Shown here: in pieces, positions 15,433 through 57,415 of the stretch
Layout of the letters: every line of letters begins with the position of its first letter
Numbering within the stretch: the first letter of the stretch is position 1
Assembly: GCF_011009015.1 (NCBI RefSeq)
Contig: NZ_CP048878.1
Span: 3,378,354 to 3,442,353 of the forward strand
Direction of reading: 5' to 3'
DNA from: Spartinivicinus ruber
Lineage (GTDB): Bacteria > Pseudomonadota > Gammaproteobacteria > Pseudomonadales > Zooshikellaceae
Length of the DNA stretch: 64,000 nt
Notes under the pieces: generated by a model
Told to the model about the DNA's origin: nothing
What the model saw: the letters and a program-made list of their open reading frames with translations, nothing else
Databases searched by the model: none
Position numbers and translations under genes: made by a program

Positions 15433-16443
15433 TCAGTAAACCCTCGGCTCAATCTCAAGCTGAACCCCAAACTGCTCACTTACCTTTTTAGCAATCTGGC
15501 TTGCCAGCGCCATTACCTCACGACCTGTGCCATTTCCTTTATTGACGATCACCAGCGCCTGCTTTTCATGCACACCGATATCACCTTGATATAACCCTTT
15601 AAAGTCACATTGCTCAATTAACCAACCTGCAGCCAACTTAATTTGGTGGCTTCCTGCCTGGTAATGAGGCATTTCAGGATAAGCCTGATAGATAGCCTTA
15701 AATTGCTCCAAAGAAATAACTGGGTTTTTAAAAAAGCTTCCTGCATTACCTAAAACAGAGGGGTCTGGTAACTTGCTTGCACGAATATGGCAAACCGTAT
15801 CACTGACTTGTTGTGGGGTAACTGATTTTCCATCCAATAACTGCTTTAGGGGTTGATAATGAAGCTTTGGCTGAAATTTAGCGCTTAACTTAAAAGCAAC
15901 TTTAGCAATGATCCAAGGGGAACTTGGCTGTTTAAAAATACTATCTCGATAGTCAAACTGGCACTCATCAACAGAAAACTGCTTAATTTGCTCGGTTTCC
16001 CTATTAAATGCCCACAGTTTATCCATCACTTCCTTCAACTCAACACCATATGCGCCGATATTTTGAATCGGTGCTGCTCCCACCGTGCCCGGGATCAATG
16101 ACAGATTTTCCAGTCCAGAAAGCCCTTGCTGCAAGGTCCAGCAAACAAACTGGTGCCAGTTTTCGCCAGCACCAGCCTCAACTATCACCTTACCACCCTG
16201 GTTGTTACCTATTTGCTTGCCTAAAATTGCTATTTTGGCGATTAACCCTTCGAAGGGTTGAGTAAACACCACATTGCTGCCTCCTCCCAAAGGAAGAAGG
16301 TTCAGCTGATGCGTTTTTGCATACCGGCAAGCTTCTACTAGTTCATTAAGAGAGCGTACTTCAGTCCAATATTCTGTAGTCGCAGGACAGCCCAACGTAT
16401 GATGAGACTGCAAAGCGACCTGACGCTTTACTGACAAGGTCAT
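15433..16443 (-). CDS. murB: UDP-N-acetylenolpyruvoylglucosamine reductase
   Basis: MurB reduces UDP-GlcNAc-enolpyruvate to UDP-MurNAc with NADPH and FAD in peptidoglycan synthesis. The 336-residue type I protein shows the FAD segment LPLGGGSNVVF, PGTVGAAPIQNIGAYG, the YRDSIFK motif, and GNAGSFFKNP with the catalytic Ser. Its ATG overlaps the stop of the upstream phosphatase gene by one base (TAATG), so it is the last gene of the comEC-to-murB operon. Confidence 0.97.
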   Translation of the reverse strand: MTLSVKRQVALQSHHTLGCPATTEYWTEVRSLNELVEACRYAKTHQLNLLPLGGGSNVVFTQPFEGLIAKIAILGKQIGNNQGGKVIVEAGAGENWHQFVCWTLQQGLSGLENLSLIPGTVGAAPIQNIGAYGVELKEVMDKLWAFNRETEQIKQFSVDECQFDYRDSIFKQPSSPWIIAKVAFKLSAKFQPKLHYQPLKQLLDGKSVTPQQVSDTVCHIRASKLPDPSVLGNAGSFFKNPVISLEQFKAIYQAYPEMPHYQAGSHQIKLAAGWLIEQCDFKGLYQGDIGVHEKQALVIVNKGNGTGREVMALASQIAKKVSEQFGVQLEIEPRVY

Positions 16444-16922
16444 TACAACTGATATTCCTGCCTGATTTGCTGCAACAACCCTTGTGCAGCCACTTCCACT
16501 AAATCCAGCACCTGAGCAAAACCATCTGTTCCGCCATAATAGGGGTCTGGTACTTCCTGAGTATGAGGCTGTAGCTGAGCAAAGCTCATAAACAGCTTGA
16601 GCTTTCTATGGTGATTAACCGGTGCTAACTGCTTCAACGCAGTTAGGTTACTTTTATCCATTGCCAGAATATAGTCGAAGGTTTCAAGATCATCTAAGCT
16701 CACCTGCTGAGCACTGATCCCACTCAGATTATAGCCCCGCTGCTTTGCTGCCTGCTGAGCCCGCCGGTCAGGTGGTTCGCCAATATGGTAAGCAGACGTT
16801 CCAGAAGAAGCTACCTGGATATGCGCTGCTAATCCTGCCGTCTCTACCATCTGTTGAAATACACCATGAGCCGTTGGAGAACGACAGATATTGCCCAGAC
16901 AAACAAACATCACACTAACCAT
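16443..16922 (-). CDS. Low-molecular-weight protein tyrosine phosphatase
   Basis: The protein has the N-terminal P-loop CLGNICRS (Cys8 to Arg14, C-X5-R) and the DPYYGG motif with the general-acid Asp. The start at ATG 16922 gives 159 residues, a typical size; an open frame to 17012 adds 30 atypical residues inside kdsB. It overlaps kdsB by 8 bases and murB by 1. The same order is found in pseudomonads. The target is unknown; tyrosine-kinase control of surface polysaccharide is one possibility by analogy. Confidence 0.93.
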   Translation of the reverse strand: MVSVMFVCLGNICRSPTAHGVFQQMVETAGLAAHIQVASSGTSAYHIGEPPDRRAQQAAKQRGYNLSGISAQQVSLDDLETFDYILAMDKSNLTALKQLAPVNHHRKLKLFMSFAQLQPHTQEVPDPYYGGTDGFAQVLDLVEVAAQGLLQQIRQEYQL

Positions 16923-17691
16923 GACTTGAGCTTCCCTCCACCCATTGCCGTACCTTAGCCAAATCCTCTTCAGTATCAACTCCTGGAGGAGGCACCACTT
17001 CCGCCTGAGCAACGGCTATTTTGATGCCCTGCCATAAAGCTCGTAATTGCTCTAAGCATTCCAGCTGCTCAGTAGGTGCTACAGGCCAGTTAACATAGCG
17101 ATGCAGCAACCCAGCCCGATAACCATAAATACCAATGTGCCGATAAAATGGTCCAACAGGTAGTTTTTTAGGCAGTTCGGATAGGCTAAAGTGCTCTCGT
17201 CCCCAAGGTATGGGGGCACGGCTGAAGTAACTGGCTTCTCCGTGTGCATTTAATACCACTTTTACAACATTCGGATTGAACAAGTCATCAACTTCAGTAA
17301 TCTGATCCACCAATGTTGCCATTTCGCACTCAAGTTGTGAGCCAAGCAAGCTAGCCACCTGATTGATCACCACTGGCGGAATTAACGGCTCATCCCCTTG
17401 AATATTAACCACCACCTCATCATCAGTCAGGGCCAGTTTTCTAGCCACCTCTTCGACTCGATCAGTGCCTGAGGGGTGGTTATCCGCTGTTAAGCAAACC
17501 TCACCACCAAAACCGTTAACAATATCCGCAATCCCCTGGTGATCAGTAGCAACCACCACTCGAGTGGCTTGGCTTTGTAGTGCTTGTTGGTAAACATGCT
17601 GAATCATTGGCTTTTCGCCAATACGCAATAAAGGTTTACCAGGTAACCGCGTTGATGCATAGCGAGCAGGGATAACAACCGTAAATGTCAT
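16915..17691 (-). CDS. kdsB: 3-deoxy-manno-octulosonate cytidylyltransferase
   Basis: KdsB activates Kdo as CMP-Kdo for lipopolysaccharide inner-core synthesis. The 258-residue protein has the nucleotide-binding start IPARYASTRLPGKPL, the INIQGDEPLI-type segment VNIQGDEPLIPP, and the HIGIYGYR motif. It lies in the envelope operon near lpxK, which makes the lipid A acceptor of Kdo. Confidence 0.97.
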   Translation of the reverse strand: MTFTVVIPARYASTRLPGKPLLRIGEKPMIQHVYQQALQSQATRVVVATDHQGIADIVNGFGGEVCLTADNHPSGTDRVEEVARKLALTDDEVVVNIQGDEPLIPPVVINQVASLLGSQLECEMATLVDQITEVDDLFNPNVVKVVLNAHGEASYFSRAPIPWGREHFSLSELPKKLPVGPFYRHIGIYGYRAGLLHRYVNWPVAPTEQLECLEQLRALWQGIKIAVAQAEVVPPPGVDTEEDLAKVRQWVEGSSSHG

Positions 17692-17730
17692 AAGAGAAAT
17701 AACTTTAACTAGCTAAAATAACTGATTGAA

Positions 17731-17919
17731 CTATTTACTTAATCTTTCATCTGTGGTGAGAGTTCGCGCTTCATGTTCTAGCATAACCGGGATTCCATCA
17801 TGAATAGGGTAAGCCAGTGCATCATGACGACAAACCAGCTCTTGGTGCTCGTCATCGTACTTTAACTCCCCTTTACATAAGGGGCAGGCAAGAATCTCAA
17901 GCAGTTTCTTATCCAACAT
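17731..17919 (-). CDS. Trm112/YcaR family small zinc-ribbon-like protein
   Basis: The 62-residue protein (start ATG 17919) begins [22 protein letters not shown], the YcaR/UPF0434 family signature, with a CPLC knuckle and a later [19 protein letters not shown] segment. The family is related to Trm112, an activator of methyltransferases, but the bacterial role is unclear. It overlaps the lpxK stop by 11 bases and lies between lpxK and kdsB, its conserved position. An in-frame ATG at 17958 lies inside lpxK and is less likely. Confidence 0.92.
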
Positions 17920-18943
17920 ATTCTTTGTGGTTAACCTTTTTCGATCGTACTTGTTCAACCTTTACCTTTAGTTGTTGCCAAAAGGTATCAGGCAGTTTGG
18001 CTGTTACCATCAAACTCCAATGGTTGGCGGATACAAAAGGCCTGCACTTCACAGCATCTTTAGTGGTCATTATCACAGGCAAGTCGTCATCAAAATGAAT
18101 ATCTTTTGCTGCTAGTGGTGCATGATCAGCTTTAGAATGAGGTATCACCCGCATTCCCAACGATTCACAGGTTGTAAAAAAACGAGCAGGATTTCCGATG
18201 CCCGCCACTCCGTGCACTAGCTTAAAATCACTCATGTTTACTTCAGCCAGCGGGTATTTTTTTCCATTTTGTAACTGTACTAAATATTCCGGTAATAATG
18301 TCATTGACTGCTGAGCTAACGGAACACTTAATAACGGTTTGGAGCCATTAACAACCACAAAATCTACTGTCTCAAGCCGCTTTGGAGACTCACGTAGTGG
18401 TCCTTGGGGCAAGCAATAGCCATTTCCCAGACCTCGATCGCCATCAATCACTACCAGTTCAATATCCCGGCCTAATGAATAATGCTGCAGACCATCATCA
18501 GCAACAATGATATCAGTCTCAGGAAACTGGGTCAGCAACCCTTTAGCTGCTTCTACGCGCTGAGGTGCAACCATGACTGGTACTTCCGTCAGTTGCGCAA
18601 GCATAACGGGTTCATCTCCTGCCAGCATGGGATTGCTATCAGAATTAACAAACAGCGGGTAATGATCGACTTTCCCTCCATAACCCCGGCTGATAATACC
18701 TGGCGTATAGCCCCACTCTTTCAACTGCTCAACAATAGCCACCACTAAAGGCGTTTTGCCTGTTCCTCCAACAGTAATATTACCCACTACAATTATAGGC
18801 ACCGGAGGTTGCCAAACAGCTACTGTCCCACAAAGAAAACGCTGTCTTTTATGTTTCACAACCTGCTGATACAGCAGCCTTAAAGGAGCTAACCAATACA
18901 GATGACGATCCGGTTGATACCAGGCATTCACTAGCCAGTTCAT
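17909..18943 (-). CDS. lpxK: Tetraacyldisaccharide 4'-kinase
   Basis: LpxK phosphorylates the 4' position of the lipid A disaccharide at the cytoplasmic face of the inner membrane. The 344-residue protein has an N-terminal membrane-associated helix, the Walker-type loop [15 protein letters not shown], and the [19 protein letters not shown] segment typical of LpxK. It precedes the Trm112-like gene and kdsB. An intrinsic terminator lies upstream between it and exbD, so part of its expression may come from its own promoter or from read-through. Confidence 0.96.
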
Positions 18944-18961
18944 GGATTCACCAAAATTATA

Positions 18962-18991
18962 AAAAGCTTAGGCCAGCACAAGGCTGGCCTA
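18962..18991 (-). terminator. Intrinsic terminator between exbD and lpxK
   Basis: A 9-bp stem TAGGCCAGC/GCTGGCCTA with loop ACAAG is followed on the leftward strand by AGCTTTTTA. It lies in the 83-base gap inside an otherwise tight operon and would reduce transcription of lpxK relative to exbBD. Confidence 0.7.
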
Positions 18992-19026
18992 TATCGACTG
19001 AGGTAATAAGAAAATCAGCTAGCCAG

Positions 19027-19452
19027 TTATTCGTCTTTATCTGATTGTTCTTGGGTAGTAATACTTAAATGAACAAACCCGAGTTGACCTGCAGCATCCA
19101 TTGCTGTCACTACCGCCTGATAAGGTGCATTGGCATCAGAGGTGATAACTAAAGGTAACTTATTGTTGCCTTTAGACACCTTCCGTAAAGCCGTTTTCAG
19201 CGTTTTAATTGACGTATTAACTAGTGATTTAGCATTTACAGCATACTCGCCTGTTTTGCTGATCAAAATTTCAATCTGATCAGGTTGGTTTTCAACAGGC
19301 TCACCAGTAGCTTCTGGTAAATCAACACTTAAGTGGGTTTCTTTGGTAAATGTGGTGGTTACCATAAAGAAAATCAGCAGCAAAAACACCACATCAATTA
19401 ATGGGGTGAGGTTAACAGAAACCTCTTCGGCTGCTTGCCTACGAAACTTCAC
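19027..19452 (-). CDS. exbD: ExbD/TolR family biopolymer transporter
   Basis: The 141-residue inner-membrane protein has a short cytoplasmic head, one membrane helix (about residues 17-36) with the proton-pathway Asp in PLIDVVFLLLIFFM, and a periplasmic domain. It works with the ExbB-type channel to use proton motive force at the envelope. It starts at GTG 19452, overlapping the exbB stop (GTGA). No TonB gene is nearby, so the partner process is not shown. Members at this locus are often just called ExbD or TolR. Confidence 0.92.
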   Translation of the reverse strand: MKFRRQAAEEVSVNLTPLIDVVFLLLIFFMVTTTFTKETHLSVDLPEATGEPVENQPDQIEILISKTGEYAVNAKSLVNTSIKTLKTALRKVSKGNNKLPLVITSDANAPYQAVVTAMDAAGQLGFVHLSITTQEQSDKDE

Positions 19453-20081
19453 TTGCCTACCTCACTGTAATCCACTTCACGTTCGCCGTGGAGAACTTCC
19501 ACCAACTTAGTGGCTTCTTGCTCCATAGCGATGACCAGCTCATCAACCCGGCGCACATAAAAACGGTGCATAATCATTGCCGGAATAGCAATGGTCAGCC
19601 CCGCTGCAGTTGTGATCAGGGCTTCTGAAATGCCACCAGCCAAGGCATCAGCATTACCTGTACCTGAAATCTGAATTTCGGCAAATACTTTAATCATGCC
19701 GATAACAGTCCCTAGCAAACCAAGTAATGGTGTGATCACTGCAATGGTGCCCAGACTATTGAGAAAACGCTCTAGGTCATGAATAACCCCCGAAGCCGCC
19801 TCCTCAATACTTTCTTTCATAATTTCACGTCCATGCTTGGAGTTACTTAACCCTGCAGCCAGGATTTGCCCTAATGGAGAACTTCCCTTAAGTTCTTTTA
19901 AGCGTTTGCTGTCAAGCTGTTTATTTTTAATCCATTTCCAAACCAAGGCTAACGTATGTTTTGGTGCAATTTTTGAGGGCCTTAACGTCCAGGCACGTTC
20001 GATAATAATAGCCAAGGCAAGAATAGAACAAATAAGAATTGGCAGCATCAACCAGCCACCGGCTACAATGAGTTCTTTCAC
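19449..20081 (-). CDS. exbB: ExbB/TolQ/MotA family proton channel
   Basis: The 210-residue protein has three membrane helices, a long cytoplasmic loop, and the conserved TPLLGLLGTVIGMIKVF and ISEALITTAAGLTIAIPAMI segments of the MotA/TolQ/ExbB channel domain. It pairs with the overlapping exbD. The same pair between comEC and lpxK is known from pseudomonads, where its energised partner is not defined. Confidence 0.93.
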   Translation of the reverse strand: MKELIVAGGWLMLPILICSILALAIIIERAWTLRPSKIAPKHTLALVWKWIKNKQLDSKRLKELKGSSPLGQILAAGLSNSKHGREIMKESIEEAASGVIHDLERFLNSLGTIAVITPLLGLLGTVIGMIKVFAEIQISGTGNADALAGGISEALITTAAGLTIAIPAMIMHRFYVRRVDELVIAMEQEATKLVEVLHGEREVDYSEVGK

Positions 20082-20123
20082 GACATCTCCCCTTATGAAT
20101 GTTGGGCCAACTCTAACATAAAG

Positions 20124-22457
20124 TTATAAGCGACCGAATAGCCTAGCGCTAACTTTTTGTGACCAATATCTAGGATAATCAAGGCGATAGCGCATTATTA
20201 AAGCAGGCTTTGTTGCTTTATCAAACAACCACTGAATTGACCCTTCATCTGCTGTATTGTAGGTAACGATTCCTGACTGTTGCAGCCGCTTGACTAATTT
20301 TTTATTCGGGTGACCATAACTGTTTTGATAACCCGCCGAAAACAATACAACCACTGGTTTAACCTGATTAACAAAGGATACACTTGTAGCATAATAACTG
20401 CCATGATGAGCAGCGACCAACACTGTAGATTGTAATTGCTGCCGCCAGTTATTTATCAGTTGATTTTCTAGTCGTGTGGAAATATCTCCTGTCAGTAGCA
20501 GCTGGCTATTCCCCGCTATTATTTGCAATACACAGGATTGCTCGTTCCGATTATTACCTTCAGACCCTGCTAGATAACGAAAAGTAACTTCATCCCACTG
20601 CCAGCTTTGCCCTGCCTGACAGGATTGCACTGACTTACTCATAGTTATTTCTGAAGCTGTACCTGACTCAACAGCTTTAATCAATGCAGCCTTATTTAAC
20701 TCTGTTAATCCACCACTATGGTCTTGATCAGCATGACTAATCACTAGCTTATCCAGTTGATTGATTTGTTTTTGTTTAAAAAAAGGCAAAATAACCGCAC
20801 CCACAGTACTAAAGCGAGGGTTCCATTGTGGCCCAGTATCATAAATCAACCGATGATTTTTCGTTTCAATCAGGGCCGCCAATCCCTGCCCCACATCAAA
20901 CAGCGTGAAACGAAACTGGCCGGTTTGCAAAATGGCCGTCATGGGCTTGAAACAGCTTACCAAAACCCCTGTTAATAACAGCCCAGCACGGCCAGGTAAT
21001 CCTGCTGGTAATAGCCAGGCCAGTGCGAATAACACAACTCCCAGTGGTACTAAACTCAGCACAGTTTGATCGGTCGTTGACAGTTGAGCCAACTGGGCCA
21101 GCATATTAACACCTTCCGCCAACCCCAAGTTGATCACTTTCAAGCCAACCCAGCCCCATTCAGAAAAACTGGCCACCACTATTGCACACAGCAAAGCAGG
21201 CATTACCACAAACCCCAAAAGGGGGATGACCAGTAAGTTAATTAAAGGGGAAAACCAAACACTGACTTGCTGCCAGTGTATAAATAATGGCAGTAAAACA
21301 ATCCAAACAATCCACTGGGGTTTAATCCATACAGGCACAATGCCACTAACCAGTCTACGATGACTGAATGCCAGCAATAGCGCGGCAACAGCAACAAAAG
21401 AGTACCAAAACCCTGCACTAATGACCGCGAGTGGCTGCCATAGCAATACAAAAAATAAAGCTACCCACCAATAGCTCAATGGTTGAAATTGCCAACGCCC
21501 GACAAAAGCAATAGCCCCAATAGTCAACATAATCCAGGCGCGTTGAACAGGTAGCTGAAAACCACTTAGTAAGGCATACCCAGTTGCTAATAGCCAACCA
21601 GTACCAATCGCCCATTGCCTGGCTGTAATAACTAAAGGCAATAGTCTTACCTTGACTAGCACTGAGGCAACCAGCCCCCCTAACAGCGCACATAGGCCAA
21701 TATGTAACCCAGATACAACCACCAAATGTGTCGTACCTGTCTTATTTAGAGCACTCCACTGATTGGGGAGAATTGCAGACTGGTCGCCCAGTAATAATGC
21801 CAGGATTAACCCCGGCTCTTCTTCTAATTGCTGGGTAAAGTGCTGCTTCAGCTGCCAGCGCCACTGATCAAACCAGGTTAGCCATTCACAACAAGCCAAG
21901 AGTTTATTTTGCTTGCTGCGACTAACATAACCCGTGGCATCAATACCTAACCGAAATAAATAACCTTCATAGTCAAAGGCACCAGGCGAAGCAAAGCCGT
22001 GGGGACGCTTGAGTTTGACTAACAACTGCCAGCGTTGCCCTGGCATTAATGTTTGATATTGTTGATACCAGTACAGTCTTAGTTTGTTAGGAGGAAAGTA
22101 GGCATCAACCACTGGCTGTCGGCTAGGACTTGCAATATTCACCACTTTAAAATCAAAGCGATATCCATGGGCTCGCTGTTGGGGCATCCCGACAATGTGG
22201 CCAGTGATGAGTAAAGATTGACGCTCAAGTGAATTTGGTAACCGTTCTGCTAGCCCTATCAGTCCATAAGTTACTCCCCAGCAATACCCCAATACAAAAC
22301 TGACTAGGCTCACCAACCAACCACGGCGAATTCGCAAACTAATTACAACCACTACAATTAAAGAGAACAAACCCGTAAACAGATACCATTGATTAAGGGA
22401 AGGTAAAGCAGCCACCAGTACACAGCCAAAAGAAAATGCAATCAGACTTCTGTGCAT
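20124..22457 (-). CDS. comEC: ComEC/Rec2 DNA internalization protein
   Basis: The 777-residue polytopic protein forms the inner-membrane channel for single-stranded DNA in natural transformation. It has an N-terminal DUF4131 part, the competence domain with GTTHLVVVSGLHIG and many membrane helices, and a C-terminal metallo-beta-lactamase-like domain with SHADQDHSGG, which may degrade one strand. It is the first gene of the leftward envelope operon. No other uptake gene lies in the window. Confidence 0.95.
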   Translation of the reverse strand: MHRSLIAFSFGCVLVAALPSLNQWYLFTGLFSLIVVVVISLRIRRGWLVSLVSFVLGYCWGVTYGLIGLAERLPNSLERQSLLITGHIVGMPQQRAHGYRFDFKVVNIASPSRQPVVDAYFPPNKLRLYWYQQYQTLMPGQRWQLLVKLKRPHGFASPGAFDYEGYLFRLGIDATGYVSRSKQNKLLACCEWLTWFDQWRWQLKQHFTQQLEEEPGLILALLLGDQSAILPNQWSALNKTGTTHLVVVSGLHIGLCALLGGLVASVLVKVRLLPLVITARQWAIGTGWLLATGYALLSGFQLPVQRAWIMLTIGAIAFVGRWQFQPLSYWWVALFFVLLWQPLAVISAGFWYSFVAVAALLLAFSHRRLVSGIVPVWIKPQWIVWIVLLPLFIHWQQVSVWFSPLINLLVIPLLGFVVMPALLCAIVVASFSEWGWVGLKVINLGLAEGVNMLAQLAQLSTTDQTVLSLVPLGVVLFALAWLLPAGLPGRAGLLLTGVLVSCFKPMTAILQTGQFRFTLFDVGQGLAALIETKNHRLIYDTGPQWNPRFSTVGAVILPFFKQKQINQLDKLVISHADQDHSGGLTELNKAALIKAVESGTASEITMSKSVQSCQAGQSWQWDEVTFRYLAGSEGNNRNEQSCVLQIIAGNSQLLLTGDISTRLENQLINNWRQQLQSTVLVAAHHGSYYATSVSFVNQVKPVVVLFSAGYQNSYGHPNKKLVKRLQQSGIVTYNTADEGSIQWLFDKATKPALIMRYRLDYPRYWSQKVSARLFGRL

Positions 22458-49467: not shown

Positions 49468-49830
49468 ATGCGTTTGTTTATTGCCGAAAAGCCCAGTTTA
49501 GGCAGAGCCATTGCCGAGGTACTCCCCAAGCCCCACCAAAAAGGCGACGGTTATATCCAGGTCGGCAATGGTGATTACGTCAGTTGGTGTATTGGCCATT
49601 TACTTGAACAGGCACAGCCTGATGCCTATGACCCAGCCTATAAACAGTGGAAGCTGGAACACTTACCGATTATTCCAAAACAATGGCAGCTAACCCCTAA
49701 AGCAAAAACTAAAAAGCAGCTGGGAGTCTTACGCAAATTAATTAAACAAGCCGACCAACTCATTCATGCTGGCGATCCCGATCGAGCACTGTTACGGTTA
49801 AAGACTGAATTTCATATCTTACATCTTTAG
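49468..49830 (+). pseudogene. topB: Truncated topB, 5' remnant cut by an integrative element
   Basis: The 120-residue frame starts like topoisomerase III ([19 protein letters not shown]) and follows TopB up to GDPDR at residue 106, where similarity stops; 14 unrelated residues precede the stop. About three quarters of residues 1-106 equal those of the full topB at 55450-57384, while its DNA is more GC-rich. It is read as the original 5' end of the host gene, cut inside the Toprim metal motif. A LexA box lies just upstream. Confidence 0.9.
49774..49785 (+). repeat. Left attachment core (attL candidate)
   Basis: GATCCCGATCGA inside the topB DPDR codons is the last sequence shared by the remnant and full topB. 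The same 12 bases with one mismatch occur at 55756-55767. It overlaps the CGATCG palindrome. Confidence 0.6.
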
Positions 49831-49840
49831 TTGTATGAAA
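49810..49840. repeat. Inverted TTTCATA repeat near the left end of the element
   Basis: TTTCATA (49810-49816) and TATGAAA (49834-49840) form an inverted pair, and a further TGTGAAATA follows at 49842-49850. They lie between the left core and the first recombinase ribosome site and may be recombinase arm sites or an operator. Confidence 0.35.
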
Positions 49841-49882
49841 ATGTGAAATACGATAGTTTGAACCTAAACAGAGGCTTGTGGC

Positions 49883-51226
49883 ATGGAATACATACTATGG
49901 GATCTACCAAACTTAACTATTGATAAGCAACCTTGCTTTGAGATTGACTTAAACGGTGAGTTAAAACTTAGATGGAGTGGGACCGGCAATGCGTTAGGTC
50001 GTTTGCCACTGTTATACGATGAGAGAGGGAAATCTATCGAGGTTGTCAATCAATGGCTTATTCACCTTAAAGCTAACAACCACAGAAAACAAGTTAGCAC
50101 TCAAGCCCAAGCACTACTGCATTACTTTATTTTCTTGGATGATCTCAATCTCAAGTGGGATGAAATGCCCATCCCCCCTCGAAACAGGCCAACCTACAGG
50201 TTTAAAAAGCATCTTAAGGAAGTATTCAAAAATGGAGGTATCGCTAGGACTACAGCTAATAACTACATGGGAGTGGTAGTTAACTTCTACAAGTATTACT
50301 TAGCAAGGCGCCACCCTTTTTCTAACCCTCCTTTTAGATACGAAGAAGTTAAAATCAAGCTAACTGGTAACCATCAGTTCATGCGACAAGGGTTTATTCA
50401 TGTAGACACAACAGACCTTCGGCTAAACCTACCTAAAGACACAAGTTTCGGAGGATTGTCCAGAAAACTCATTCCCTTGAGTGAAGAAGAGTGGTCATTA
50501 GTCGATGATATATACCGAAATCAAGGTGAAGCTATCTCTTACACGAATGGAGAAAAGAAAAAGGTAAGCATCTCAGTTGAATTCAAGCTGATACTGGCAT
50601 TAGCTAGATATACAGGTATGCGACGGGAGGAGTTAGCCACATTTCGCTCAAATATGGTTTTTAAGCCTAACGCAGAGCAACTAATAAAAAAATACTTAAT
50701 ACATAATAATGGAATACTCATCTCCCCTGCCGTTGGAGTGAACACAAAAGGGGCAGGGGCTAGAAGAGTGGAAATACCTACTCTATTAATGCTCAATTTA
50801 CATAAATATATTAACTCACCACGATATATTGAACGCCGTAATAAATACCTGAAAAAGAACCCTGATGAGCCATTTGGAGCCCCACTTTTTATTACTCAAA
50901 AAGGAAATAAATACTCCGGAAAAACCTTTGATGCTCGTTGGGGGGAAATCCGAAACGCTGCAAGAATCAAGTACAAAAACTTCGATCACAAGTTTCATAA
51001 CTTAAGATCAACCTATGCTGTATTTCGTCTCAAGTCTTTACTAAGCAATGAAAAGCTTACTGAAGGAGAAGCTCTAGATTATCTACAAGCAGTCATGGGA
51101 CATAAAAATCGATCTTCACTGTTATCTTATTTAAAGTTCTCTAAGTTTGAATTAGAAGCTAATGAGATATATGAGCAAGCCGTAGATGTTTTACTTGGTA
51201 GTGATAATGACTTCAACCTGGTATAA
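49883..51226 (+). CDS. Tyrosine recombinase, first of three
   Basis: The 447-residue protein is a complete tyrosine recombinase. An N-terminal SAM-like DNA-binding part (about 45-165) precedes the catalytic domain with Arg247 (TGMRREEL), His372 and Arg375 (HNLR), His407 (MGHKN) and the nucleophile Tyr416 (LLSYLKF). AGAGG is a good ribosome site 7 bases upstream. It lies 53 bases after the remnant's stop and 14 bases ahead of the second gene. It is the likely main strand-transfer enzyme and could correspond to the TnpA/GmtY role, an inference. Confidence 0.93.
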   Translation: MEYILWDLPNLTIDKQPCFEIDLNGELKLRWSGTGNALGRLPLLYDERGKSIEVVNQWLIHLKANNHRKQVSTQAQALLHYFIFLDDLNLKWDEMPIPPRNRPTYRFKKHLKEVFKNGGIARTTANNYMGVVVNFYKYYLARRHPFSNPPFRYEEVKIKLTGNHQFMRQGFIHVDTTDLRLNLPKDTSFGGLSRKLIPLSEEEWSLVDDIYRNQGEAISYTNGEKKKVSISVEFKLILALARYTGMRREELATFRSNMVFKPNAEQLIKKYLIHNNGILISPAVGVNTKGAGARRVEIPTLLMLNLHKYINSPRYIERRNKYLKKNPDEPFGAPLFITQKGNKYSGKTFDARWGEIRNAARIKYKNFDHKFHNLRSTYAVFRLKSLLSNEKLTEGEALDYLQAVMGHKNRSSLLSYLKFSKFELEANEIYEQAVDVLLGSDNDFNLV

Positions 51227-51240
51227 CTGAGTAAATCACC

Positions 51241-53052
51241 ATGGCTTTCAAAAGACAAAAAACAAGAAAAACTGTAAAAGCTAAAGACAATAGTTCTGCA
51301 GAAGTATATCCAATATCCGTTGAATCGATGGTCATAAATGATAGCTACAGGACTGTACACTTCAAACGATTAGGCTATAAAGGATGTCCTAACCTTTCAC
51401 CAGGCAGCAAAAATAAATCGTTTAAATCTAAAAGACCGGAAGATTTAGTCGATATGAACAGGTGGGATCTTGTTCAAAGCCTGTATATAAATATCAAGGG
51501 TATGGATAAGAGCGAAAGGACAAAAACAAATATTTATCAAGATCTATGTAAACTCATAAAAGCTTGCGATGAAGCTAATATCAGCGATATTTTTTCTGTT
51601 CCAGCTATTGAAAAATTTGTATCAACTTTAAAAACTAAGTATACTCGGGGGGCAAAAGGTAAAACTCAAAACTCAATCCAATACTCTATAAAAACTCTCA
51701 TAGCAGAGATGGCTTTACCTAACGAGAGACAAGTTTTAGATTGTTTTTACAAATTCCCAAATGACTCTACACCAACTGAACCATATACTGATGACGAGCT
51801 CAAAGTAATTTTACGAAATTTATATAAGATTCTAAATTCATATAAAAGTCACTTATTAGAAAAAACCACTCCTGACACATTTCCTCTATTCAATGATAAA
51901 AATACAGAGTCTAATGACAAAATATCACGTTATATACGGTTTTCCTCATCAAGAAAAATAAGCTATAAAAGGAATTCATCAACTTGGAAACAAGATTTAG
52001 TTATATGTGGGTATTTCATTACCTGTTTCTTTACCGGTGTAAACCAATCGTCACTATTAAACTTAAAACACTCTGATATCAAAGGCTGTAGTTTCATTGA
52101 GTCGTCAAAAGGAAAATACCTACTCCAAACAACTAAGGGAAGACAAAATTACCAGCGCAACTTACATGGAGTAGGCTTTACAGCAAGAGGAAAAGATTTT
52201 TTTGAAACATGGCTACGACTCAGTAAATTAATCACCTCGAATAGTTCTGGATATGTTTTTCCAAAAGTAACTAATGATGTTTGTAGTAAGATGAATAATA
52301 GTCATCTGTATAGTGGAATCAATACAACATTTAAAATGTTAGGGCTTCCAGCTCTGAGTGCAAAACGATTTAGAAAGACTAAAGCTTCTATTATAATGAG
52401 AGCTACAAATAGTATCTTTTCTGTTGCAGAAAGCCTCAATAACTCACCCTCTACAGTTGACAAGCACTACTCCGATGGAGATCAAGTGACTAACCAGATC
52501 ACTTTAGCAAAAGCGTTGGAAGTGCGGGAAAGATCTGCTAAAGGGGAACCAATTAGAGAAGTCATTCATAATATCAGGTTTCAATTCAAAGATCCCGTTA
52601 GAGAATATAACTACCAGAAAAATGGACTAACTACTCCACCACTTTCTCCTTGTGGCTTACGCTGCGAAAGCCCTTTTGGTAAAAAGGCTGAACAGCTGAA
52701 AAAAACTCTTCAGGAAGTTAGTTTAGCCACTAAGCGAGATCGTGTTGCTTGTTATAAATTTCTTGAATGTTTTGGATGCGAGCATCATGCAGTTATCGCT
52801 GAAGTTGAAGACATATGGATGATACTTTCATTTCGTGATGTTATCGACGAGTCTCTAGCCAGACCATCAGTAAATAGTATCCCTACTAGCTTACTTACAA
52901 AAGTCCTAAATACTATTAATTATTTATTAAAAAGGTTAGAAAAAGATCACAACAAAACTTATATGTTAGCACTTGAGCAGTATAATGATGAGCCTCACCC
53001 TTTATGGTCTGATTATAACGACTTGGGTATGTTAATGGAGGTTTGGTCATGA
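51241..53052 (+). CDS. Degenerate tyrosine recombinase-like protein, second of three
   Basis: The 603-residue protein keeps the recombinase layout but has lost key residues: the TGxR motif is TGVN (Asn268), and the HxFR His is Lys375, though Arg378 and Tyr410 (DKHYSDG) remain. A C-terminal cysteine-rich segment (CGLRCESPF...CYKFLECFGCEHH) probably binds zinc. It is unlikely to cut DNA alone and may help target choice or assembly. Its TGA overlaps the next ATG (ATGA). Codon use is AT-rich. Confidence 0.88.
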   Translation: MAFKRQKTRKTVKAKDNSSAEVYPISVESMVINDSYRTVHFKRLGYKGCPNLSPGSKNKSFKSKRPEDLVDMNRWDLVQSLYINIKGMDKSERTKTNIYQDLCKLIKACDEANISDIFSVPAIEKFVSTLKTKYTRGAKGKTQNSIQYSIKTLIAEMALPNERQVLDCFYKFPNDSTPTEPYTDDELKVILRNLYKILNSYKSHLLEKTTPDTFPLFNDKNTESNDKISRYIRFSSSRKISYKRNSSTWKQDLVICGYFITCFFTGVNQSSLLNLKHSDIKGCSFIESSKGKYLLQTTKGRQNYQRNLHGVGFTARGKDFFETWLRLSKLITSNSSGYVFPKVTNDVCSKMNNSHLYSGINTTFKMLGLPALSAKRFRKTKASIIMRATNSIFSVAESLNNSPSTVDKHYSDGDQVTNQITLAKALEVRERSAKGEPIREVIHNIRFQFKDPVREYNYQKNGLTTPPLSPCGLRCESPFGKKAEQLKKTLQEVSLATKRDRVACYKFLECFGCEHHAVIAEVEDIWMILSFRDVIDESLARPSVNSIPTSLLTKVLNTINYLLKRLEKDHNKTYMLALEQYNDEPHPLWSDYNDLGMLMEVWS

Positions 53053-54968
53053 GTATCTTTTCTATGAAAGATATAGACCCAAATGTTCGTAAGCCAAAGT
53101 ATAGTGCTGATTTCTCAAAAAACGAAGAAAAAACTATAATATCATATGACTCTGCAAATAAGCCATACAGCCTATACTCTGATGACAAATGGAAATTTAT
53201 TAGTGCAAGAGACTTAAATTTTCAAGGGTTGACAGGATATTTTAAAGAAACAACAAAAAAATTGATCTATGGAGTACTTTTTACTGAAAAAAAACTCTAT
53301 AGTAGTAACTTTATCCAGAAAAACATAATAGAAAGCGCTATAAATTTTCAAAAACTAATCATAAAGACTGGCGGAAGTAGCTTTACATTCATAGATGATG
53401 ACAGTAATTTTAGAAAGCTAGTTATCGAGGCCAAGAAAAAAAAATTAAAACTCAAAACCTGGAAAAATTATTTAGTTTTCATATCCAAACTCCACGAAAA
53501 ATCATTTATATGTCGTGACATAGGAAATGCTGAAAAATTAGCAATAGAGTTAGCTGGCCATAACCTTTCAGTACAACAATCAATGGCTATTCCAGAAAGG
53601 ATAGCAGCTAAGTATTTTGATTATGCTTTAAAGGTTATTACTAGGTATCACCCTTACAGATATGCTATTAGCAGAGCATATCAAAATTTATTCATCGAAT
53701 ATAAAAAATCCTCATCTATTTGGAAAACACAAGCAAATTCAAAAAAATATGCTGTTAGAAATGTTGAACACAACATTCCATTCAGTGACTTTGTATTAGA
53801 CTTATCAGGAAGTTGGCTTTCCTGGCTTAGAGGTGCCTGTTACTTTGTGATAGCAGGTTTCACAGGGTGTAGGGATGGAGAAATAAAGTCATTTAACTTG
53901 GCATCATATGAAGAGAAGCAATATGCAGACGTAACGATACCCATTGTATATGGTGAAGACTCTAAGCCCAATCATGCGGGTATTTCTAGACGGATATCTT
54001 GGGTAACTATACCTGCTGTCAAGCTTGCAATAGAACTGTTATGGTACAGTTTTGAGTTTGCAAGAAATGAATGGAGGGAAAAAGGAAAAAATATTACGCA
54101 CCTTGATGATAGAAAGAAATTTTTACAGAAGGTTGATAAAATATTTTTAACATTACCTCATATTGCAACTACACACCCCTCAGCTGGAAGGCAAGCATTA
54201 AGCAACTCATTAGAAAATTTTGCGAAGTCAGTAGATTGCAGGTTAACGAAAGAAGATATTGAAGAGTTTAATCGACTAAACCCTACACGAAAAGGACAAC
54301 TCAAGGTTGGTGATATACTAATACCACATCCTCATGGGTTCAGAAGAACATTTGCTGTATTTTTAGTCAGGAATCGCCTCGGTTCACTAATGGAACTGAA
54401 ATATCAGTTTAAACACATGAATGTTGCAATGACAGCTTGGTACTCTAATCAAGCAGAAATTGCTGGTTATTTTGATATGATGACTGATAGAGACCTGATC
54501 AATATCATAGAAGAAGAAAACCATGAGTTTATGACTGATACTCTTTACTATATTTACAATGAAGCGGAAACACTCTCAGGCATAGAGGGTAAAAGAATTT
54601 TAGATGCCAGGCTGAGCAGCCCTACTACCATATACCTCAGTAGAGATGAAATATCACGTCAGGTTAAAGAAGGGCAAATGTCAATAATTGAGCACCCTGG
54701 TGGACATTGTACAAACCCAAGTTGTAATCGAATTTGTAATATGCAAACTTGCCGATTCAAAGTGGTTACCAAGGAAAAAGCTATTAATTTAGTACCTGAA
54801 CGAGAGCGATTAGTAAAGAAGTTCCTTACCCTAAAAAAATGGCAGGTAAAACAACCCAATATCATGTCAAAAATATATTATGATATTAAGTCCATTGAAC
54901 AATGCTTCAAAGACCATGATATTCCATTTACTCCTTTTATTGACACCATTGATGTTACAATGCTATAG
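53049..54968 (+). CDS. Large tyrosine recombinase, third of three
   Basis: The 639-residue protein (ATG 53049, with a GGAGG site 7 bases upstream; TTG 53043 is less likely) has a full catalytic set: Arg275 (GCRDGE), His429 and Arg432 (HGFRRT), His456 (KHMNVAM) and Tyr465 in MTAWYS. The C-terminal part has a cysteine cluster GGHCTNPSCNRICNMQTC that probably binds zinc. It is like the large partner recombinases TnpB (Tn554) and GmtZ. Nine residues separate its stop and the next gene. Confidence 0.9.
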   Translation: MSIFSMKDIDPNVRKPKYSADFSKNEEKTIISYDSANKPYSLYSDDKWKFISARDLNFQGLTGYFKETTKKLIYGVLFTEKKLYSSNFIQKNIIESAINFQKLIIKTGGSSFTFIDDDSNFRKLVIEAKKKKLKLKTWKNYLVFISKLHEKSFICRDIGNAEKLAIELAGHNLSVQQSMAIPERIAAKYFDYALKVITRYHPYRYAISRAYQNLFIEYKKSSSIWKTQANSKKYAVRNVEHNIPFSDFVLDLSGSWLSWLRGACYFVIAGFTGCRDGEIKSFNLASYEEKQYADVTIPIVYGEDSKPNHAGISRRISWVTIPAVKLAIELLWYSFEFARNEWREKGKNITHLDDRKKFLQKVDKIFLTLPHIATTHPSAGRQALSNSLENFAKSVDCRLTKEDIEEFNRLNPTRKGQLKVGDILIPHPHGFRRTFAVFLVRNRLGSLMELKYQFKHMNVAMTAWYSNQAEIAGYFDMMTDRDLINIIEEENHEFMTDTLYYIYNEAETLSGIEGKRILDARLSSPTTIYLSRDEISRQVKEGQMSIIEHPGGHCTNPSCNRICNMQTCRFKVVTKEKAINLVPERERLVKKFLTLKKWQVKQPNIMSKIYYDIKSIEQCFKDHDIPFTPFIDTIDVTML

Positions 54969-54976
54969 GAACAATA

Positions 54977-55441
54977 ATGAGTGGAAAAATGAACAGAAGT
55001 GAGTTAACTGAAATCAGGCTTAAAGAGGCACTACAAAGACTCTTAGATGGTAAGCCAATAAATACCCCGTGTGATGGCAGGATTAATCTAAAACGAATTA
55101 ATGATGAGGCAAAACTCAGTTCAGGTGGCATATACTACTATAAAGACTTCATCACTAAAGCTCGCAGTATAATTGATAAAGATATTTCCAACAATAAACA
55201 ATATCTAAATAGCAGCAATGCTGAAGAAAAAATTAGTAAACTCAGAAAACAGAGAGATAAAGAAAAACAACTAAAAGTCATATATAGGGAGCAAAGAGAT
55301 AAAATGAAGCAGTTTGCCGACAGTGTAGTTGAAGAAAATGCTCGTTTATCTTTTGCTATTCATGAAGCATACACAAAAATTAATGAACTAGAACAGCAAA
55401 TCCTACAAAATAAACTAGTTCCAATTCACAAGCCAGATTAG
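54977..55441 (+). CDS. Small HTH and coiled-coil protein of the recombinase operon
   Basis: The 154-residue basic protein has a helix-turn-helix-like first half (ELTEIRLKEALQRLLDGKP...INLKRINDEAKLSSGGIYYYKDF) and a long coiled coil (about residues 75-147). The fold plan resembles TnpC of Tn554-type elements (DUF6262-like) and could match GmtX. It is the last element gene and lies 8 bases before topB. Its job may be to help the recombinases or to control the operon. Confidence 0.8.
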   Translation: MSGKMNRSELTEIRLKEALQRLLDGKPINTPCDGRINLKRINDEAKLSSGGIYYYKDFITKARSIIDKDISNNKQYLNSSNAEEKISKLRKQRDKEKQLKVIYREQRDKMKQFADSVVEENARLSFAIHEAYTKINELEQQILQNKLVPIHKPD

Positions 55442-55449
55442 TAGTATAT

Positions 55450-57384
55450 ATGATTTTATACATAGCAGAAAAACCTAGTTTGGGTCATGCAGTTGCTGAA
55501 GTATTACCAAAACCTCACCAAAGGAAAGATGGATATATTATTGTAGGTAATGGCGATATTGTCAGCTGGTGTATTGGTCATTTATTAGAACAAGCAGAGC
55601 CCGATGCTTATGATCCCATTTACAAACAATGGAAACTAGAGCATTTACCTATTATCCCAAAAAAATGGAAATTAGTCGTTAGTAGCAAAACAAAAAAGCA
55701 ATTTTTAACACTAAAAAAACTAATTAACAAAGCTGACAACTTGACTCATATTGGAGATCCGGATCGAAATGGTCAGTTAATAATAGATGAAATAATTAAT
55801 TATTGTAATGTTCCTATTGAAAAGCGTAATGCAGTTAAACGCTGCTTAATTAATGATTTAAACCCAAACTCAATAAAAAAATCACTAACCAGTTTACGTA
55901 ATAATCAGGAATTTATCCCATTATCTACTTCAGCTTTAGCAAGAGCTAGAGCCGACTGGTTATATGGCATTAATATGAGCCGCGTCTGTTCGATTCAAGG
56001 CAGAAAAGCCGGTTATCAAGGGGTTCTCTCTGTTGGGCGTGTTCAAACTCCCCTGTTAGGGTTAGTGGTTCGACGTGATCAAGATATCGAAAACTTCCAA
56101 CCTAAACCTTATTTTGAGGTGTTCGCTTTATTAGAAACAGGCAAAGGCGAACAATTTAGAGCTAAGTGGCAACCCAGCGAAGCCTGCCAGCCTTATCAAG
56201 ATGAAGAAGGCCGAGTACTCTCCAAAAAGCTGGCTGAAACAGTCGTCAATCGTATTACCGGCCAACCTGGATTAATTACCGCTGCTACCAAAAAACGCAA
56301 ACAACAAGTGGCTCCCCTCCCCTATAATTTATCCTCTCTTCAAATTGATTCAGCCAGACATTATGGGTTAAATGCCCAACAGGTGCTGAGTACCTGCCAG
56401 GATTTATACGAAAAACATAAGCTGATTACCTACCCGCGCTCAGACTGCCGTTATTTACCTAAAGAACACTTAAACCAAATAAATACTGTCACCACAGCCA
56501 TTAATCAGGTATGCGAGCCACTACAAAAAGCTGTCGCTGAGGCTGATTTATCCTTAAAAAGCAAAGCCTGGAATGATAAAAAGGTGGAAGCTCACCATGC
56601 CATCATTCCCACCGAACGAAAGCTCGATCCTAGTCGTTTATCTAAAACCGAGTTACAAATCTATGAGTTAATTGCAAGACAATACCTCGCCCAATTTTAC
56701 CCTGCTTGGCAATACGATGATCGAAGAATAGAAGTAGAAATCAGTGGTGGGCTGTTTGTTGCGACTGCAAGGCAAACGGTGGATTTAGGCTGGAAAAAAA
56801 TATTTAGCAAAAGTAATGAAAACAAAGGCGATGACAATAACCCCAATCAAGAAGAACAACAGAAATTACCTAATTTAAAAAAAGGTGATGTGGTCCAGTG
56901 CCTAAAAGGTGAGTTAGCTGAACGAATGACCCAGCCTCCCAAACCTTTTAGTGACGCAACCTTATTATCTGCCATGACCGGCATCGCCCGATTTGTCAAA
57001 GACCCCGAAATTAAAAAAATATTAAGAGAAACCGATGGACTGGGTACCGAAGCCACTCGCGCAGGGATTATTGAACTGCTATTTAAACGCCAATTTCTCA
57101 CCCGACAAGGCAAACAAATCCGCTCGACTGAAACAGGCCGCCAGCTTATCCAAAGCTTGCCAGAAGTGGCTACCACACCGGATATGACAGCTCAATGGGA
57201 ATCACAACTAACATCCATCAGTAACAAAGAAGCCAGCTATAAAAGCTTTATCGAGCCAATGATTAATAGCCTTCATTACTTATTAACCCAGGTAGATGCA
57301 AGTGCCTTTAGTCAACTAAAAGGAAAAGGACAAACCGTAAAAAAGCAACCAAAGAGAAATTATAAAAAAAGAAAAAAAGCTTAA
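55450..57384 (+). CDS. topB: DNA topoisomerase III, full length, with replaced 5' part
   Basis: The 644-residue type IA topoisomerase relaxes and decatenates DNA. The Toprim domain starts with IAEKPSLG; the metal motif is GDPDRNGQ, with Asn where Glu is usual. The active-site tyrosine lies in the ITYPRSDCRYLP segment, and a basic tail ends the protein. The first 170 codons are AT-rich like the element, the rest resembles the host. It begins 8 bases after the element operon with a weak ribosome site, so it may be translated by coupling and transcribed from the element. Confidence 0.93.
   Translation: MILYIAEKPSLGHAVAEVLPKPHQRKDGYIIVGNGDIVSWCIGHLLEQAEPDAYDPIYKQWKLEHLPIIPKKWKLVVSSKTKKQFLTLKKLINKADNLTHIGDPDRNGQLIIDEIINYCNVPIEKRNAVKRCLINDLNPNSIKKSLTSLRNNQEFIPLSTSALARARADWLYGINMSRVCSIQGRKAGYQGVLSVGRVQTPLLGLVVRRDQDIENFQPKPYFEVFALLETGKGEQFRAKWQPSEACQPYQDEEGRVLSKKLAETVVNRITGQPGLITAATKKRKQQVAPLPYNLSSLQIDSARHYGLNAQQVLSTCQDLYEKHKLITYPRSDCRYLPKEHLNQINTVTTAINQVCEPLQKAVAEADLSLKSKAWNDKKVEAHHAIIPTERKLDPSRLSKTELQIYELIARQYLAQFYPAWQYDDRRIEVEISGGLFVATARQTVDLGWKKIFSKSNENKGDDNNPNQEEQQKLPNLKKGDVVQCLKGELAERMTQPPKPFSDATLLSAMTGIARFVKDPEIKKILRETDGLGTEATRAGIIELLFKRQFLTRQGKQIRSTETGRQLIQSLPEVATTPDMTAQWESQLTSISNKEASYKSFIEPMINSLHYLLTQVDASAFSQLKGKGQTVKKQPKRNYKKRKKA
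55756..55767 (+). repeat. Right attachment core (attR candidate)
   Basis: GATCCGGATCGA in the same codons of the full topB matches 11 of 12 bases of the left core. It contains the palindrome GATCCGGATC. Part of the match is due to the shared coding motif. Confidence 0.55.
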
Positions 57385-57415
57385 CTAATCAAGACTTTTA
57401 ACTTATATAATTCAA

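Follow-up and report, generated by a model that had tools for sequence, protein, structure and literature searches.

A strand-biased circularizing integrative element splits host topB in Spartinivicinus ruber and carries a complete topB that may rescue it

In SXT, which resides in prfC, and in the islands of dusA, a 5' part brought by the element is fused to the host gene, the function of which is thereby kept. Strand-biased circularizing integrative elements (SEs), of which SE-6283, SE-6945 and SE-Pda04Ya311 are examples, are characterized in the main text of PMC10214605 by the gene order intA-tfp-intB-srap, imperfect inverted ends, a 6-bp spacer and site specificity; an SE on plasmid pAQU1 is also named there, and the published SEs are described as leaving no empty site behind after circle formation. 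Tn552-II, a Tn554-type element (tnpABC) of Staphylococcus, carries a target-gene-like (tgl) gene, for which rescue is suggested by the authors in the passages of PMC12486829 devoted to it. Here we analyzed a stretch of 64,000 nucleotides of Spartinivicinus ruber (the window) and found an SE that splits the host topB and brings a topB of its own; we consider it probable (roughly 0.8) that the carried copy rescues the target gene, perhaps in a form that cannot be hit again.

Searching the window genome for topB returned five matches, the fifth of which is distant (28% identity) and lies elsewhere in the genome. The other four are on the plus strand of the locus: a host 5' remnant with the Toprim domain only (49468..49786; residues 1-106), collinear with the host flank of a relative of the same genus (G002); a complete gene of 644 aa (55450-57384), which matches topoisomerase III models and is the sole intact copy in the genome; a host 3' half (73779-75392; residues 103-643, 91% identity to the full copy); and, about 8 kb past this half, a decayed fragment (about 81902-82109; residues 532-630), coordinates beyond the window being continued through L021 and L022. 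The preliminary description had noted that remnant and full gene share about three quarters of their protein sequence and diverge in DNA, and that a 12-bp core with one mismatch is common to both. Our alignments agree with it, giving 76% protein identity over residues 1-107, DNA alignable over only 127 bp at 79%, and cores reading GATCCCGATCGA vs GATCCGGATCGA. The topB sequence of the remnant ends directly after GATCCCGATCGA(G).

The empty-site relative that this description had advised to look for was found in G002, where topB is uninterrupted and the upstream genes are as in the window. The window flanks match G002 at 91% (left) and 87% (right) and meet there at neighbouring bases, a single 6-bp spacer lying between the two matches, and the right junction is thereby placed before the host 3' half. 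The empty site (attB) reads GGCGATCCCG-ATCGAG-AAGGTCAG, attL reads GGCGATCCCG-ATCGAG-CACTGTTACGG with its spacer at 49781..49786, and attR reads CTTGTAACAGTG-ATGAAG-AAGGTCAG. The left end of the element (CACTGTTACGG, 49787..49797) and its right end (CTTGTAACAGTG, L021:9761-9772) are inverted matches of each other. These junctions, compared with attB, therefore delimit an element of 23,986 bp (49787-73772) that ends 9.8 kb right of the window and holds the complete topB; its cargo part begins at 57385, fills the window up to 64000 and continues to L021:9772. The pattern search for attR required AAGG, and the identical junctions were also read without that requirement. No tRNA or Rfam family was found in the window.

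The earlier proposal of recombinase genes between the two copies can now be specified as four recombination genes (49883-55441), all on the plus strand. They are intA (49883..51226; tyrosine recombinase, 447 aa), tfp (51241..53052; tyrosine-recombinase-fold protein of SEs, 603 aa), intB (53043..54968; tyrosine recombinase, 641 aa as listed) and srap (54977..55441; auxiliary protein, 154 aa). In the domain search PF00589 was present in IntA, below cut-off in IntB and absent from Tfp. The four products show 31, 28, 28 and 29% identity, respectively, to those of the pAQU1 SE, with the order conserved. The element thus has the core genes of SEs in their order, imperfect inverted ends and a 6-bp spacer, and the split attB is retained in attL plus attR, with G002 as reference. 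By these features it is recognizable as a 24-kb SE seated in the DPDR|EGQ codons of the host topB, and the empty site and junctions bear out the earlier suggestion of an insertion in the conserved Toprim motif.

The same arrangement occurs in other bacteria. When genome contigs were scanned with a Tfp alignment, 50 loci were obtained, among which the closest Tfps (41-47%) belong to Photobacterium sp. SKA34, Pseudoalteromonas sp. Z1A8, Pantoea sp. WMus005 and P. endophytica. At these four loci (L043-L046) a complete topB lies behind srap; the DNA examined at the 46 other contig loci and at eight plasmid loci had no topB match (4/58 positive). In each of these four genomes the topB of the element is the one intact copy, and it is accompanied by a host 5' remnant (residues 1-107) and a host 3' piece, which in two of them contains a stop; in Z1A8 the host pieces sit on separate contigs. 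The alignment outperformed a single-protein query: the window Tfp by itself found only its own genome among 56 relatives and 369 class genomes. Family searches yielded Tfp matches in 2/324, 28/325 and 11/325 genomes, and these 41 genomes comprise three search centres, three new close relatives with the full split-plus-carried layout (G1046, G1142, G1317), nine weaker matches with no topB in the stretches fetched, and 26 others. In total, seven further SEs interrupt the host gene at the Toprim codons hit in the window and have an entire topB following srap. A tree of 38 Tfp proteins groups all eight topB elements in one clade (100/100). A repeat test with 57 loci as input (L076 and L080 left out), seven of which were too short, showed a topB repeat at four of the 50 remaining loci, an inverted repeat at one (L054) and nothing at 45. 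An order-wide census gave a topB match in 173 of 391 genomes; among the matches listed, short topB frames occurred in the window genome (G000), G001, G475 and G473 (354 aa). The G475 frame stops at its contig end and is no evidence of a broken topB.

Some of these loci have more than one layer. In the window genome a 206-bp right-end repeat precedes both topB 3' pieces, it is the decayed piece that is joined to the host downstream flank, and the second junction, itself decayed, reads ATCGAG-GTATAAGC with its arm lost. In G1142 an inner right end precedes a decayed topB piece with 94% identity to the carried copy of that element and 48% to the host gene. With second right ends beside decayed pieces, the window and G1142 loci thus record more than one insertion, and part of the older layer has been deleted. 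The simplest sequence of events for the window would be that an older SE with its own topB arrived first and that the present SE then entered that topB.

What the carried topB does is the question on which the readings divide. The preliminary description favoured a replacement of the 5' end, in which the element would supply a divergent topB segment that continues into the interrupted 3' part of the host gene, and the carried gene is indeed a chimera: about 130 divergent 5' codons are followed by a host-like 3' part, identity to the host gene shifting near codon 130 (about 55838) from 50-82% by segment over residues 1-135 to 90-98% over residues 136-630. In trees the C part of the window copy is sister to the host-type 3' piece (96), and its N part is on a long branch of unsure placement. 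However, the host 3' half is a separate piece that starts right behind the right end of the element, a finding named in the description itself as one that would refute this mechanism, so that the divergent 5' part stands as an observation but its joining to the interrupted half does not; moreover, the complete carried genes of L043 and G1142 are distant from their host genes over the 3' part as well. We thus regard 5'-end replacement as very improbable, and the option named beside it in that description, a full topB as cargo with the host 3' part beyond the window, fits this locus and its seven relatives. The chimera would most simply have arisen by later homologous recombination. It has also to be considered that the carried gene may serve the element's own recombination, for example by resolving copy-out intermediates, and not the host. 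Its position is suggestive, since it lies directly behind srap (8 bp apart in the window), with a start codon overlapping the srap stop in L043, L044 and L045 and a start that looks alike in the local sequence of G1046, G1142 and G1317 (L046 was left out of this comparison). Yet among the 58 loci searched only the four SEs inserted in topB had a topB match, and the nine weaker family matches had none in the stretches fetched; SEs outside topB, having no topB match, argue that SEs in general manage without it. A role limited to the element is therefore unlikely in our opinion, and both uses could hold together. Under host rescue, which we prefer, SE insertion would break the host topB and the complete copy of the element would restore topoisomerase III. 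The core genes and the carried topB point in the same direction as the host gene in all eight elements, so that transcripts started at the old topB promoter could run through the core genes and perhaps reach the carried gene. As published SEs leave no empty site after circle formation, damage to the target would be lasting unless repaired by the carried copy. What speaks against this reading is that topB is dispensable in E. coli K-12, that the attR spacer of three of the eight elements is unlike topB, and that the window and G1142 loci were hit more than once. The carried copies retain the AEKPS and GDPDR motifs, and the two pairs of them that the dN/dS figures cover gave dN / dS values of 0.018 / 0.333 and 0.005 / 0.133, low ratios that speak for a working enzyme.

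Whether the carried copy is also protected from its own element may depend on the insertion-site arm. To the right of the spacer, AAGG (Glu107 as GAA) is present in 8/8 interrupted genes and 0/8 carried copies: that of the window, whose counterpart of the site is GGAGATCCGG-ATCGAA-ATGGTCAG (55753..55776, plus strand), has ATGG with Asn at codon 107, and the other seven have TTGG or TCGG (Val107). In a non-random survey of 18 genes from one topB search and 60 of the best order-census matches, leaving out L015, the element copy of G001, the motif was found in 77/78, with AAGG in 56, AGGG (Glu as GAG) in 16 and TTGG or TCGG (Val) in five. Fisher's test of AAGG in 0/8 carried vs 56/77 surveyed genes gave p 9e-5, kinship ignored. 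Aligned with topoisomerase III of E. coli, residue 107 corresponds to the Glu that follows DPDR, and the conserved acidic residues, as given in passages of PMC6101483 and PMC7587558, are the Toprim Glu and the DxD aspartates. Since the carried copies retain these, the arm could be lost without loss of catalysis. It is possible, if less sure than the rescue itself, that carried copies escape their own element through the lost right arm while keeping the catalytic Glu7 and DxD; arm loss might block insertion. The competing account keeps the rescue and denies arm loss any part, the donor lineage having simply happened to possess Val107. Val-type topBs do exist without adjoining SE genes (no SE gene match in the 16.5-20 kb fetched around the five), which weakened the idea that Val107 originated inside the element, and in the C-part tree they share a clade of 11 (100) with four of the seven Val carried copies; given this shared clade, there may have been only two independent changes, and the difference in the arm is weak evidence for immunity. 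Against an accident of descent, the window copy reached the same effect on the arm by a different change (Asn), and AAGG is missing from all eight carried copies but present in 56/77 surveyed genes. We give the accident of descent slightly less than an even chance. The fuller account, in which an SE lineage present in at least four families would break topB at its active-site motif and at once supply a copy without the arm and with the catalytic residues, so that the host would rely on the element to provide topoisomerase III while the locus became a landing place for changing anti-phage cargo, is likewise tentative and falls a little short of even odds.

Several other features of these sites were noted. 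The attR spacer is the same as the attL spacer in 5/8 elements and unlike topB in the other three (window ATGAAG, L165 ATGCCT, L203 ATCAAG); the deviating spacers may be the fingerprint of an earlier donor site. The host topBs of G003 (L002) and G507 (L121) have N and C parts that are placed differently in the two trees and look as if swapped near the insertion site; the G003 stretch fetched had no SE gene match. In G001, of the same genus, a different multi-recombinase module (L023:5717-15828) splits topB near residue 206, in the SVGRVQ motif. This module encodes proteins of 778, 173 and 460 aa, the last with PF00589, and has a broken frame of about 640 aa; a complete topB of its own follows, with 55% identity to that of the window. 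The window Tfp found no match in G001, being a query that is weak on distant relatives. This makes G001 another example of a split topB accompanied by an intact one, and one that looks unrelated to the SEs.

PADLOC models were run against selected large ORFs from all eight elements, with strong matches in six of them. The window element has Dsr1 (L021:4565-8380, minus strand, 2278 bits), L043 a type II-A retron and ThsA-Macro (16409-19230), L045 a DRT UG10 by a partial model (18798-21731), L046 a GajB/RTasHel-like helicase (17768-20635), G1142 ThsA and ThsB, and G1317 PD-T7-1, Hp1 and mad6-like matches; the coordinates recorded for the cargo of the six elements include L200:3902-8478, L202:11255-15382 and L203:2445-3512. 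The ORFs scanned in L044 and G1046 gave no strong match. Beyond the window border, L021:867-4238 encodes a 1124-aa protein with leucine-rich repeats, strong at the DNA level too, and Roc-COR domains, and a PTH2-type peptidyl-tRNA hydrolase (L021:9046-9411) is close to the right end of the element. Further on, past the topB 3' half, an MFS transporter gene and a thioesterase gene are flanked by two IS1595-type copies with 99.9% identity over 1,037 bp (L021:12816-17429).

Taken as an SE with its own topB, this locus shows how a conserved housekeeping gene, hit at its active-site codons, can be the target of an element reported to leave no empty site, the whole gene being carried along. With eight pairs of broken and carried genes at hand, single-codon swaps could be used to test how SEs choose their targets and whether they are immune to themselves. 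These pairs are also a warning that the sole intact topB in a genome may reside on a mobile element, and they point to topB as a place where defence genes can land.

With SXT and the dusA islands the topB SE has in common that the function of the interrupted gene would be kept by DNA of the element. Unlike them, it carries the whole gene and leaves the host 3' half over, behind attR and away from the carried gene, and we therefore did not class it with the islands that replace a 5' end. GInt islands also have four recombination genes, and their targets are probably not fully inactivated according to the authors (PMC5385486), whose main text contains neither 'topB' nor 'topoisomerase'; GInt proteins form clusters distinct from those of SEs in the account of PMC10214605. 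Among the papers that our literature searches listed, none describes an SE in topB, and the main text of that SE paper does not contain the word 'topB'. Tn552-II, as far as PMC12486829 describes it in the passages concerned, is likewise a tyrosine-recombinase element with a homolog of its target gene adjoining the core genes, and such a homolog is carried by the window element too. However, Tn552-II has another target and a three-gene core without Tfp, and its carried gene keeps a copy of att, whereas the carried copies of the topB elements have lost the arm. Membership in the Tn554 type, with its TnpA, TnpB, TnpC core lacking Tfp, was rejected for the window element, which has a full-length Tfp. 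The closest likeness is to the SEs of PMC10214605, whose described features of intA-tfp-intB-srap order, inverted ends, 6-bp spacers, one target site and an empty-site relative are all found here; what sets the window element apart is the entire copy of its target gene that follows srap, and topB as that target. Thus SEs were already known, as was a rescue-like target copy in a Tn554-type element, and what appears to be new is an SE in topB that carries a topB.
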